This document shows positions 18,321 to 21,971 of a stretch of 29,871 nt of DNA, one piece after another. The notes beneath the pieces were generated by a model. The model worked only from the letters and a program-made list of their open reading frames with translations. It was not told where the DNA came from and did no database searches. Within the stretch, counting starts at the first letter, position 1; each line of letters starts with the position of its first letter. The position numbers were made by a program, and so were the translations under genes. Location: the IMG/VR virus record IMGVR_UViG_3300030451_001762, positions 1 through 29,871 of that record, one strand, 5' to 3'. This DNA comes from a virus.

Positions 18321-18590
18321 ATGGCAAACGCAACAAGTGCACCTAGCGGTGAAAGAGTAGTAAGTGTAAGTGAAAATGGTAGCTGGTCTACTAAAACAAT
18401 CGTAGCAAATACTATTGGCGAACTAAGAATAGCGTTAGATATACCTAACGAAGCTACAGTTAATGTTCAAGACCAATTGTATACAGATAATTCATCTGCT
18501 ATGCCAACTAACGAGCTAAATGATGATGGTACAACACGACCATTATGTATTGGCTGGGTAGCTAACAATAAAACAGGAGGCATAAAGTAA
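18321..18590 (+). CDS. ubiquitin-like (beta-grasp) modifier protein with masked GG tail
   Basis: This 89-residue protein is a candidate ubiquitin-like modifier. Residues 12-28 form a possible beta-hairpin (RVVSVSENGSWSTKTIV). TIGELRIALDIP (31-42) matches the helix seen in ThiS/MoaD and prokaryotic Ubls, ATVNVQDQLY (45-54) gives the next strand, and RPLCIGWVANNKTGG (73-87) the last strand and tail. The GG at 86-87 is followed by only Ile-Lys. Ubl precursors are cut after GG by a protease before activation, and a JAB protease is coded two genes on. TAAGGAG precedes the ATG. E2-like and E1-like genes follow in the same direction. Sequence similarity alone is modest; the tail and neighbours make the case strong. 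Confidence 0.82.
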   Translation: MANATSAPSGERVVSVSENGSWSTKTIVANTIGELRIALDIPNEATVNVQDQLYTDNSSAMPTNELNDDGTTRPLCIGWVANNKTGGIK

Positions 18591-18615
18591 TGTATCCTGA
18601 TAAGTAAATAATAAT

Positions 18616-18707
18616 TAAGGGGGACAATAAGCCAAGTAGTTCTAGTGGATATAGGTGGTGTTCACCGAACACAGAAACTAGACATAGACATCGGTGAGTC
18701 CCCCTTA
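18616..18707 (+). ncRNA. structured RNA element between Ubl and E2-like genes
   Basis: TAAGGGGGAC (18616-18625) pairs perfectly over 10 bp with GTCCCCCTTA (18698-18707). Inside, TCTAGT/ACTAGA (641-646 with 677-682 of the 18 kb) encloses the hairpin GTGTTC-ACC-GAACAC (18658-18672). Competing with it, TCACCGA (18662-18668) pairs perfectly with TCGGTGA (18691-18697). Two exclusive folds are thus possible, just before the ribosome site AAAAAGGAG of the E2-like gene. This is a plan typical of a switch. The same stretch is also an open frame joined to the E2-like gene. Confidence 0.55.
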
Positions 18708-18725
18708 CAAACAAAAAGGAGAATT

Positions 18726-20348
18726 ATGAATTTGTTATTAGATTTTAACTCAAGTCCAACAATCAATAAAAATATCGTAGAATGTAGTAAGTCTCCTGTG
18801 GAATTTACAGAAACAGGAGCGCGTATTAAATTTATTAGACCACCACGATATGATTCATTAGACCGACCATTGTGGATAGATATTCTTAATATTGATACAT
18901 TGTGGGATAATGTAGATGCAGAGCAGTTTGCAAATAATACAGGTATGCAAGACATAGTAGCATTTAAAGAAGAACTGGAAACAGTAAACACATGGTTGTA
19001 TGATGCTTTTGGAATAACAGATAAGATTGATGTTACTAAATCATATGGTTGGAAAAAAGGTTGTTACGATATTGTTAAAGATGCGATTGAAAGAGCTCAT
19101 AAGTTTAATATGAGACCAGCAGGCATGCCTAGTATATTCAACAGAATACAAGATAGTAGGTGGTTGTATGATAGGCTGCAAAGACAAATGCTAGGCCTTG
19201 ATGCTTATCGTAACAAAGCTAAATCAGCAGAAATAACACTTGATAGTAGTATTGAAAGTATTGTTGAAAGCCAGCGAGCAGCTTATGATAATATTATAGA
19301 AAGTACAAATCAAGCTAATGCTATGTCTGATTATTACAAAGTATATAATTATATTCAACCATCAACCGATAGTGTTGATATTCAATTATATACAATTGTA
19401 CATTGCAAGCCAAAAGACATGACTATCATTAACAATAGAAACGAAGAGATATGTAAGATGAGAGTACCTGAATGTTATCTTAAGTTTCATAGACCATTGT
19501 ACAGAGCATTAAATAATGGAAACAGATATGGATTACAATATACTGCAGCTGTTATGCACGGTAAACATCCATACATTAATGCAACACCATATCGAAGGTT
19601 AAATCATCCAAATATGGATAGATATGCATGGAGTACATTATGTTTATCTAGTTACACTGATGATATAGAACGTGCGTTGTACAAAAATGATTACATGTCT
19701 TTTGTTATGGGTATTATGAATTGGAATAATATTTATAATAAAGATGCAACTAACCCATATGCTGAAATTACACAAGTCATGACTTATGGTACATTTCCAG
19801 AAGTTGAAAATGAAGATGAACTACATAGAATAAGAACAGCTCTTAATATTAGCCTACACGAGTTCTTTCGTGCTAAATACTTTAAACACACAATGACAGA
19901 ATTAGATAGTGTTCAAAGAGATTGGAACGAAAGAATAACTAGAAATTACTCTCCATATGCAAGATATATTGTTGAAGAATATGATAGTAAGAATTGTCCA
20001 ACACGAAGTGTTTGTACTGGATATCAAAACCTTAAATCATATCTTGAATCAGATGCTCAGTATATGGTAGAAGAAATGGTAGGTAATTTTCTTATTAATG
20101 AAAATAGTAATGAGTTTGATGTAGGCTATGAGTTTCAAGACCTGGAATCAATATTAATGGCTATAAATAATTCTGCAAGACCTGAAAACTTGTGGGACCA
20201 ATTAAAGCAATTAAGGTATTCAGACGAAACTGATTACTGGGGTGAAGCCCCAACAAAAACCGATAACAACCATGATATTGCAGCGATGCAAGCTAAAATA
20301 TCACAATGGGAAGAACAATTAGCAGCCTCAGGAGGTATAAATGAGTAG
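18726..20348 (+). CDS. E2-like ubiquitin-conjugating protein, 540 residues
   Basis: The ATG at 18726 has AAAAAGGAG at good spacing. An in-frame open stretch continues upstream to 18615 with GTG at 18645, so a longer form cannot be excluded. The centre (about residues 215-375) reads like an E2 fold: strands VDIQLYTIVHCK and YGLQYTAAVMHGKHPYI, then HPN at 294-296, a cysteine at 306 (STLCLSSYTDD), helical YMSFVMGIMNWNNIYN and NPYAEI. Classical E2 enzymes have HPN about eight residues before the catalytic Cys, then a helix with a similar NPxA segment; here the gap is ten. The first 210 residues and last 165 are unrecognised helical regions. It overlaps the JAB gene by 8 bases. Confidence 0.72.
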   Translation: MNLLLDFNSSPTINKNIVECSKSPVEFTETGARIKFIRPPRYDSLDRPLWIDILNIDTLWDNVDAEQFANNTGMQDIVAFKEELETVNTWLYDAFGITDKIDVTKSYGWKKGCYDIVKDAIERAHKFNMRPAGMPSIFNRIQDSRWLYDRLQRQMLGLDAYRNKAKSAEITLDSSIESIVESQRAAYDNIIESTNQANAMSDYYKVYNYIQPSTDSVDIQLYTIVHCKPKDMTIINNRNEEICKMRVPECYLKFHRPLYRALNNGNRYGLQYTAAVMHGKHPYINATPYRRLNHPNMDRYAWSTLCLSSYTDDIERALYKNDYMSFVMGIMNWNNIYNKDATNPYAEITQVMTYGTFPEVENEDELHRIRTALNISLHEFFRAKYFKHTMTELDSVQRDWNERITRNYSPYARYIVEEYDSKNCPTRSVCTGYQNLKSYLESDAQYMVEEMVGNFLINENSNEFDVGYEFQDLESILMAINNSARPENLWDQLKQLRYSDETDYWGEAPTKTDNNHDIAAMQAKISQWEEQLAASGGINE

Positions 20349-21309
20349 ACCTAACTTTATTATTAAAGAGAAAGCATGGAATACCATGCAACAATATGCA
20401 AGCATTGCATATGACAAAGACAAGAACGAGATATCTGGGTTAATACCATACAGATTAACAAAACATCCTGTGTCAAACGAGACTGTGTATGAGTTATTTG
20501 ACCCAGTTATCTTAAAGCAAGAAAACTCAGGAACAACAACAGAGCTTGATGGTGAAGCATTACGAGATTACCAAGTTAAAGCTGGTATGAAATATGGAAC
20601 AGATATCAAATTCTGTTGGTGGCATTCACATCATACGATGGGTGCATTCTGGTCAGGAACAGACGATAAAGAAATAAAAGCATGGAAGAATGACTCATGG
20701 TCACTTGCACTTGTTATCAATCTGTTTGGAGAATACAAACTAAATGTATCTGTGTGGAAACCAATAGAGTTCTCTGAAGATGTACCATTAGAAATTGTAA
20801 GAGATATTCCTAAAGCAACAAAGAAACAGCTTAAAGAGTATGATGAGTTATGTTCTAATAAAACAGAAGTTATGCATACAGGCTGGCATACAAAAGGATA
20901 TACTCCACGCAGTCAAATGAATATGTGGTACAATAATAAAACAGAAGATGCACTAGACCCTGATGCAAACAAGAAACTAAAATGGGTTCAAGGAGAATCT
21001 CTATCTGTTTATGCAGAACTTATTGAATCATTAGATGAAGCAGTATCAGATGTGATAGATGAGTTTTGCCAAGGCACTATAGATTACAAAGAATATTCTA
21101 GTAGAATCAAAATGTTAAACAAGGACTTAAAGTCAAGAAATGCAAAGGTTAAAGTAAATATATTACCACAAGGTAGTGTACTTGAAAAAGCTATGACTAT
21201 GCAACCTTGGGAACATTTAAAATATGATAACGAAGCTGTAGAAAAATCATATGACGATGCTAGATTAACTAACTATCAAACAAACTATGGAGGTTATGGA
21301 TGGGTATAA
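20341..21309 (+). CDS. JAB/JAMM metalloprotease (Ubl processing or deconjugating)
   Basis: This 322-residue protein has a complete JAMM zinc site: E30 in NEISGLIPY, then H95-S-H97 with S105 and D108 in WWHSHHTMGAFWSGTDD. That matches HxHx7SxxD exactly. The family cleaves after the C-terminal GG of ubiquitin-like proteins, either to mature a precursor or to release it from a target. The domain fills about residues 1-150. The remaining 170 residues are mostly helical, contain GWHTKGYTPRSQMNMWYNNK, and are unrecognised. AGGAGG precedes the ATG. It overlaps the E2-like gene by 8 bases and the E1-like gene by 10, so the three are made together. Catalytic activity is well supported. Confidence 0.93.
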   Translation: MSRPNFIIKEKAWNTMQQYASIAYDKDKNEISGLIPYRLTKHPVSNETVYELFDPVILKQENSGTTTELDGEALRDYQVKAGMKYGTDIKFCWWHSHHTMGAFWSGTDDKEIKAWKNDSWSLALVINLFGEYKLNVSVWKPIEFSEDVPLEIVRDIPKATKKQLKEYDELCSNKTEVMHTGWHTKGYTPRSQMNMWYNNKTEDALDPDANKKLKWVQGESLSVYAELIESLDEAVSDVIDEFCQGTIDYKEYSSRIKMLNKDLKSRNAKVKVNILPQGSVLEKAMTMQPWEHLKYDNEAVEKSYDDARLTNYQTNYGGYGWV

Positions 21310-21971
21310 ACATGAGAAGTGAAGGCTTAGTAAATAACTTACACGAATATACTTTCCATATATTAGGTTGCGGAGCTATTGGTAGCTCTGCAGCCACTCA
21401 GCTGCTACGATGCGGTGCTAAGAAGTTTGTATTGTACGATATGGACAAAGTAGCAACAGAAAACATCGGAGTATCACAATATATGGATGAGCATATTGGT
21501 ATGTTAAAAACAGAAGCACTAGAAGAACATCTGATGAGTATTAATTGTAGAAACGTAGAAATAATACAATCGCCTGAGTATTTTAGCATGTTTCGTTATC
21601 AGAATAATAACGACATTGTTGTTTTAGGTTTTGATAGCATGAAATCTAGGAAGCATGCAGTACAGGAAATATGTTCTAATAAACAAACAAAACCATTTCT
21701 ATTGATAGATGGTAGAATGGGTGGCGAGCATTACCAGCAATATTTATTCAAAGACTTGACACTAAGTAAATACTTAAAAACATGGTATTCTGACGAAGAT
21801 GGTGATGCAGAACCATGTAATGTCAAAGCAACAAGTTATTGTTCAAATATGGCTGGTAGTATGATTGTAAACGCTATTAGGAAAGTAGTTACAGATAGTC
21901 CATACGAAACAATGTTGACTTTTAATTTTCCTACTATGACATTGCAAAAAACTACTTGCTTTCCACGGTGA
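21300..21971 (+). CDS. E1/ThiF-like Ubl-activating enzyme
   Basis: This 223-residue protein has the adenylation fold of E1, ThiF and MoeB enzymes. GCGAIG (23-28) is the nucleotide loop. YDMDK (D47 and D49) and ENIG (N55) follow, then a catalytic-type K70 in LKTEAL and FDSMKSR (D112 and R117). Candidates for the thioester Cys are C173 (EPCN) and C181 (SYCSNMAG). The family adenylates the C-terminal Gly of a Ubl and may pass it to its own Cys. It lacks long extra domains, so it is a minimal E1. GGAGG at 21289-21293 supports the start at 21300; ATG at 21312 is also possible. It ends the cassette; a hairpin follows. Confidence 0.93.
   Translation: MGINMRSEGLVNNLHEYTFHILGCGAIGSSAATQLLRCGAKKFVLYDMDKVATENIGVSQYMDEHIGMLKTEALEEHLMSINCRNVEIIQSPEYFSMFRYQNNNDIVVLGFDSMKSRKHAVQEICSNKQTKPFLLIDGRMGGEHYQQYLFKDLTLSKYLKTWYSDEDGDAEPCNVKATSYCSNMAGSMIVNAIRKVVTDSPYETMLTFNFPTMTLQKTTCFPR

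Follow-up and report, generated by a model that had tools for sequence, protein, structure and literature searches.

Among the closest described systems is BilABCD, an ISG15-like antiviral operon of bacteria in which genes for a ubiquitin-like protein (Ubl), an E2, a JAMM deubiquitinase and an E1 follow one another in that order, with the JAMM protease maturing the Ubl (review PMC11354881). The Bil Ubl carries two tandem beta-grasp domains, the E1 an inactive and an active adenylation domain together with a Cys domain of about 80 amino acids (aa), and the E2 a CEHH motif (review PMC11354881). IMG/VR record IMGVR_UViG_3300030451_001762, a 29.9-kb tailed phage record whose full 29,871 nucleotides are referred to here as the window, encodes on its plus strand a cassette of four genes with the same four predicted activities in the same order. 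We consider it likely that this cassette forms a self-contained, reversible protein-modification pathway of the ubiquitin type that the phage would produce early in infection, with replication and recombination proteins as the best guess for its targets.

A sequence-only reading of the window had likened the cassette to Bil, and the likeness in gene order stands while the features particular to Bil were not found. The Ubls of the phage family (69-111 aa) consist of one domain, the E1 of 223 aa has one ThiF adenylation domain without a separate Cys domain, and CEHH was seen in 0/51 E2-like sequences; unlike BilABCD, the cassette is phage-encoded and lies in a replication module. With CBASS type II (Cap2/Cap3) it shares a JAMM partner and an E1 related by sequence, the window E1 matching models of CBASS E1-E2 proteins at 2e-13, but in place of a fused E2-E1 the phage E1 and E2 are separate ORFs accompanied by a dedicated Ubl, and no CD-NTase, a neighbour expected in CBASS type II, was recognised among the neighbouring genes. 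The PRTRC plasmid system and operon type 6d of Iyer 2006, a Ubl, JAB, E1 and E2 set (PMC1779556), resemble the cassette in content, with weak matches to the PRTRC_A and PRTRC_ThiF profiles, but these scored 14.7 and 24.6 bits against NCBIfam cut-offs of 101.8 and 144.8, and neither PRTRC_B nor PRTRC_C was matched. The type 6d E2 is without the classical His and has a His after its Cys, whereas in the phage E2 a His-Pro motif is retained ahead of the Cys. The lambda-type tail proteins TAPI (Ubl) and TAPK (JAB) also combine a Ubl with a JAB in a phage (PMC1779556), but they are a structural-gene pair with no E1 or E2, outside the replication module. In the PDB the best match of the E1 family profile was UBA5 (1e-18), with Cap2, MoeB and ThiF behind it, yet the UBA5-UFC1-UFM1 system has a UfSP protease where the phages have a JAMM protein, and its E2 family is unrelated by sequence. 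As in the phages, UBA5 is a compact E1, and the UFM1-type precursor has a short tail past its last Gly.

The cassette would work like Bil, CBASS and PRTRC, yet it is none of them, several of their defining features having been sought and not found. The sequence-only reading knew of no complete Ubl-E2-JAB-E1 pathway of phage origin, and no description of one was found in the open-access literature, most subscription papers lying outside that search; the cassette itself is not unique to this phage, with apparent divergent versions in crAss-like and Flavobacterium phages (see below).

The four predicted proteins

The Ubl gene (18321..18590, plus strand) encodes an 89-aa predicted modifier precursor that ends in K84-T-G86-G87 followed by I-K (NKTGG-IK). 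As a single sequence it gave no match in family searches. Its family comprises 76 loci in 50 distinct groups, with K[TV]GG in 50/50, and K84-[TV]-G86-G87 is conserved in 42/42 aligned Ubls. The invariant Gly86-Gly87, predicted to be the mature C-terminus, is encoded at 18576..18581 and the variable tail IK at 18582-18587. After the two glycines nothing follows in 28 groups, 1-11 unrelated residues follow in 20, and a domain of about 118 residues is fused in two. The tails seen were none, C, IK, AK, KK, SK, VINK, CAVVLS, KGK, KGE, YTR, KKQ, SVEHKVYVYVV, WTYYIIR, LESVVYYVIG and the fused domain, and among close relatives with Ubls 97-99% identical the tail is IK, AK or C. Because the protein is conserved through the glycines and unconserved beyond them, it has the pattern of a processed ubiquitin-type precursor. 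The AlphaFold model is a beta-grasp fold (pLDDT 77) whose closest matches among solved structures are for the most part ubiquitin-like domains (Z up to 6.8), upholding the small beta-grasp-like protein of the sequence-only reading. Sequence and model together point to a beta-grasp modifier with an exposed C-terminal Gly-Gly, as predicted for ubiquitin-like conjugation.

Three loci show unusual arrangements around the Ubl. In L034 (2465-3079) and L036 (2288-2878), KTGG runs into the fused domain of about 118 aa (weak DUF7303), comparable to ubiquitin-ribosomal protein fusions, and this fusion is a candidate natural substrate of the JAMM protease. In L013 (2555-3415, on a contig shared with L004), a spore photoproduct lyase-like radical-SAM gene (SPL, 5e-22) lies between the Ubl and E2 genes.

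The E2-like protein (18726..20348, plus strand) has 540 aa, with a UBC-like domain at residues 181-356. Its ORF has a GTG start at 18645, but the ATG at 18726 is more likely since relatives begin there behind AAGGAG; with this amendment, the four adjacent rightward genes lie where the sequence-only reading had placed them. As a single sequence the protein gave nothing useful in family searches, profile searches of PDB sequences were equally unproductive, and tblastn against the phage collection gave no match. Cys306, the predicted active-site residue (codon 19641..19643), is invariant together with P344 in 51/51 E2-like sequences, while P282, Y283, W333, Y337 and C424 are each present in at least 90%. 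HPY at 281-283 lies ahead of Cys306, with H in 38/51, P in 48/51 and Y in 47/51. The earlier reading had taken as the E2 motif an HPN (294-296) ten residues before the Cys; HPN is unconserved among relatives and was ruled out, HPY being the conserved motif. The AlphaFold model (pLDDT 84, pTM 0.77) aligned over residues 181-356 to UBC E2s, which accounted for nearly all 50 top-ranked PDB entries (Z 5-6, about 130 residues, root-mean-square deviation mostly 3.5-4) and included UBE2E1, UBE2S, UBE2D2, Ubc12 and Ubc13. Foldseek against viral models returned apparent family members, plus a CBASS E2 and a giant-virus E2 at low confidence. Z 6 alone being middling, the E2 assignment follows from the consistency of the structural matches, the invariant Cys and the operon context, and these argue with moderate strength for a predicted E2 with a UBC fold and an active Cys. 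Outside the UBC-like domain are large helical regions, perhaps for target binding, and two conserved C-terminal Cys residues (C424/C430).

The JAB/JAMM metalloprotease (20341..21309, plus strand), predicted to process and deconjugate the Ubl, matched Pfam Prok-JAB at 8.8e-4, under the Pfam cut-off, and its family profile matched Rpn11-like JAMM deubiquitinases at 6e-6. The complete JAMM site noted in the earlier reading recurs throughout a 27-sequence comparison that takes in crAss and Flavobacterium phages: E30, H95, S96, H97, S105 and D108 are present in 27/27, giving the predicted E plus HxHx7Sx2D zinc site of a JAMM/JAB deubiquitinase. The motif is also complete in all 28 groups whose Ubl ends at the two glycines and requires no trimming; there the protease must serve some other end, most simply tag removal.

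The E1-like adenylating enzyme (21300..21971, plus strand) is a single-domain protein of the ThiF/UBA5 type, matching Pfam ThiF at 1.8e-20, over the cut-off, as the ThiF/E1 fold of the earlier reading foresaw. In the same 27 sequences G23, G25, R37, D47, D49, N55, K70, D112, R117 and C173 are invariant, and the set of GxGxxG, R37, N55, K70, D112 and C173 is conserved in 26-27/27. Cys173 (codon 21816..21818) lies in PC[NST]xKxT, a motif that we take to resemble the one around the catalytic Cys in eukaryotic E1s. Searched by itself, the C-terminal segment of the E1 gave no PDB match, and Cys173 is a candidate catalytic residue because its case comes from conservation and the motif rather than from alignment to a solved E1. 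The residues found are those expected of an E1 with an ATP site and a putative Cys nucleophile. One ThiF copy per genome was found in the six phages tested.

The single-domain ThiF type of the E1, together with Pfam ThiS matches for 6/42 Ubl members, would also suit a sulfur carrier, in which the Ubl would be a ThiS/MoaD-like thiocarboxylate donor activated by a ThiF-like E1 in order to thiolate RNA, a nucleotide or a cofactor. We regard this as very improbable, as the cassette always includes an E2-like protein whose Cys is invariant, the JAMM site is kept where the Ubl requires no trimming, and no gene for a rhodanese, SirA or a tRNA thiolase was recognised next to the cassette.

Genomic setting and distribution

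The E2-JAB and JAB-E1 gene junctions overlap by 8-10 nt. In the window the cassette opens the plus-strand early block and is followed by genes for a Sak4 annealing protein, a protein labelled SSB-like (single-stranded DNA-binding) from its position, a primase-helicase, an HNH nuclease and an exonuclease, while terminase (phrog_38), portal (phrog_156) and major head protein (phrog_1328) genes are carried on the minus strand. Across the groups examined the cassette sits within a replication/recombination module, with Sak4 downstream in most groups, Erf in others, together with SSB-like genes and, further along, primase-helicase genes. The core of the sequence-only reading, a phage-encoded Ubl-E2-JAB-E1 cassette within an early operon next to replication genes, finds support in sequence conservation, in the predicted folds and in synteny that extends over many viral contigs. 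That reading had also seen no defence neighbours, and none was recognised adjoining the cassette.

Tagging of capsid, tail or portal proteins for assembly or ejection, rather than of replication proteins, has been weighed in this light. Such proteins appear chemically suitable, since Bil attaches its Ubl to proteins of the virion and disturbs phage assembly (Hor 2024, as cited in PMC12660748 and PMC13288928). The cassette, however, lies in the opposite-strand early block away from the structural genes, and in the groups read it adjoins replication genes; we consider virion modification unlikely.

All four genes are under purifying selection, with ratios of nonsynonymous to synonymous substitution (dN/dS) of 0.04-0.14 in the E1 and JAB genes and of 0.13-0.18 in those of the Ubl and the E2 against the loci L014/L015; E1 is the most constrained gene (0.04-0.11) and E2 the loosest (0.13-0.61). 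This bears on a role in counter-defence, in which the cassette would disrupt host Ubl immunity (Bil, CBASS type II) through a Ubl that serves as a decoy and through removal of host conjugates by the JAMM protease. Ubl systems of bacteria are active against phages (PMC10097602; PMC11153139; Hor 2024 as cited in PMC12660748), JAMM proteases on Borg elements have been suggested to counter such defence (PMC12660748), and the phage E1 resembles CBASS E1-E2. A decoy or stripper, however, requires only the Ubl or the JAB, whereas E1 and E2 catalytic residues kept intact under purifying selection imply active conjugation, and the cassette is constantly linked to replication genes rather than to variable accessory genes. 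Counter-defence is thus doubtful, slightly more so than virion modification.

The Ubl-E2 intergenic region holds a strong predicted RNA hairpin (18617..18706, plus strand), a candidate for expression control that could set the Ubl level above that of the enzymes; it had no match in Rfam. A stable hairpin is found at this place in most relatives, with differing sequences. A structured RNA-like element with hairpin arms around CAATAACTGGTCC...GGCAAAGGAATATGTGAG is dispersed, always on the cassette coding strand, and matched no Rfam family; it occurs in the Ubl-E2 gap of L017 (3320-3382), L100, L110, L115, L031 and L021 and elsewhere in L057, L105, L067 and L033, with a variant in the window at about 18617-18706.

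E1 relatives are encoded in 390 viral-contig stretches. Of the 76 distinct groups analysed, 49 carry the complete four-gene set in this order, most others appearing to be cut by contig ends. A bacterial chromosomal origin was sought among GTDB genomes, in which no clear bacterial host copy was found and only two weak matches appeared. The better of these (L124, SABI01000248.1), labelled as a Spirochaetia metagenome-assembled genome, is a crAss-like phage fragment with the order ThiF, unknown, uracil-DNA glycosylase and is probably mis-binned.

Among named phages the E1 matched 76 records, and reading some of these established a cognate four-gene set in crAss001 (gp79-gp76), DAC15, 'frurule', cr85, cr106, cr111, cr112, cr126 and cr128, as well as in bajarodcaudo virus 1, Dulem virus 41 and Flavobacterium phage Fpv3. 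The labels given to these genes are hypothetical, metalloprotease, thiamine biosynthesis or ThiF, and once E1 enzyme family; crAss-like and Flavobacterium phages carry what appears to be a divergent version of the cassette that has gone unrecognised in annotation. In the crAss-like phages it is placed between the primase and uracil-DNA glycosylase genes, Sak4 being close by, and in both these and the Fpv phages it belongs to a replication/DNA-metabolism module. Homology to the window is clear for E1 (2e-15) and JAB (2e-12) and supported for the Ubl (p 4e-4). The crAss/Fpv E2-like proteins have His-Ser-His and then Cys-x-Gly, with the Cys in 12/12. In phage cr106_1 (L138, 3196-3991) the Ubl is cut to KSGKF and directly followed by an HNH endonuclease gene, and another short ORF precedes the gene for the E2-like protein. 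A fifth protein of no assigned family, encoded after E1 and before uracil-DNA glycosylase in L133 (7806-8618) and its equivalents in other crAss-like loci, may be a partner or target.

Proposed pathway and its meaning

In the proposed pathway the JAMM protease would trim the tail after Gly87 where one is present, and the E1 would adenylate the Ubl C-terminus using ATP and take the Ubl onto Cys173. The Ubl would then pass to Cys306 of the E2-like protein, which, aided by its large helical flanking domains, would put it on target lysines without a separate E3, and the JAMM protease would take it off again. Sequence and prediction show the four genes and their order, purifying selection on them, the conservation of catalytic residues, the folds as predicted and an invariant Gly-Gly with a variable tail; catalysis, conjugation, reversibility and targets are inferred. 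These phages probably attach a small protein reversibly to other proteins during infection. The best guess for its targets is proteins of DNA replication and recombination, from phage or host, as the cassette stays in that module when the adjoining recombinase changes type; more broadly, the likely targets lie in DNA replication or host take-over.

Several points weigh against this reading. No E2 family was matched in a Pfam scan of all 51 E2-like members, Foldseek of the E2-like model against the PDB gave nothing significant, and the UBC match is structural only, with a middling Z of 6. H281 is replaced by F or Y in 13/51 sequences. In the crAss/Fpv phages the Ubl ends in KSG[A/T/K/G], usually continuing into a long extension, and is not strictly Gly-Gly. 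The E2 comparison between the window and the crAss/Fpv phages gave p 0.06, weak by profile and only suggestive of homology, though H281 and C306 align; a profile comparison using only three crAss sequences was uninformative, and a viral protein of 420 aa, the length of the Fpv E2, matched the E2 model (E 4e-4). No E3, proteasome or target has been identified for the cassette, and the replication targets are a guess from synteny.

The sequence-only reading had tied its case to the folds of the Ubl and E2-like products and to conservation of Gly-Gly and Cys306; the models are beta-grasp and UBC-like and both features are conserved, confirming the observation itself, which is stronger than the reading had put it, while its interpretation is partly supported. 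A wider proposal is that environmental, crAss-like gut and Flavobacterium phages own a widespread ubiquitin/SUMO-like system, distinct from bacterial Ubl defence, which reversibly tags replication and recombination proteins of phage or host to run the infection; this we put forward tentatively, at a little under even chances.

Bacterial ubiquitin-like conjugation is known chiefly as an anti-phage defence, and here phages would possess a complete pathway of their own, whose E2-like and Ubl families are both new, the Ubls having precursors in the style of ubiquitin. As cultured crAss-like phages carry cognate genes, phage-host pairs already available would allow the question to be tested. For several genes labelled 'hypothetical' or 'thiamine biosynthesis' in abundant gut phages there is now a concrete hypothesis of their role, and the cassette also bears on where E1-E2 relays of the eukaryotic type arose.

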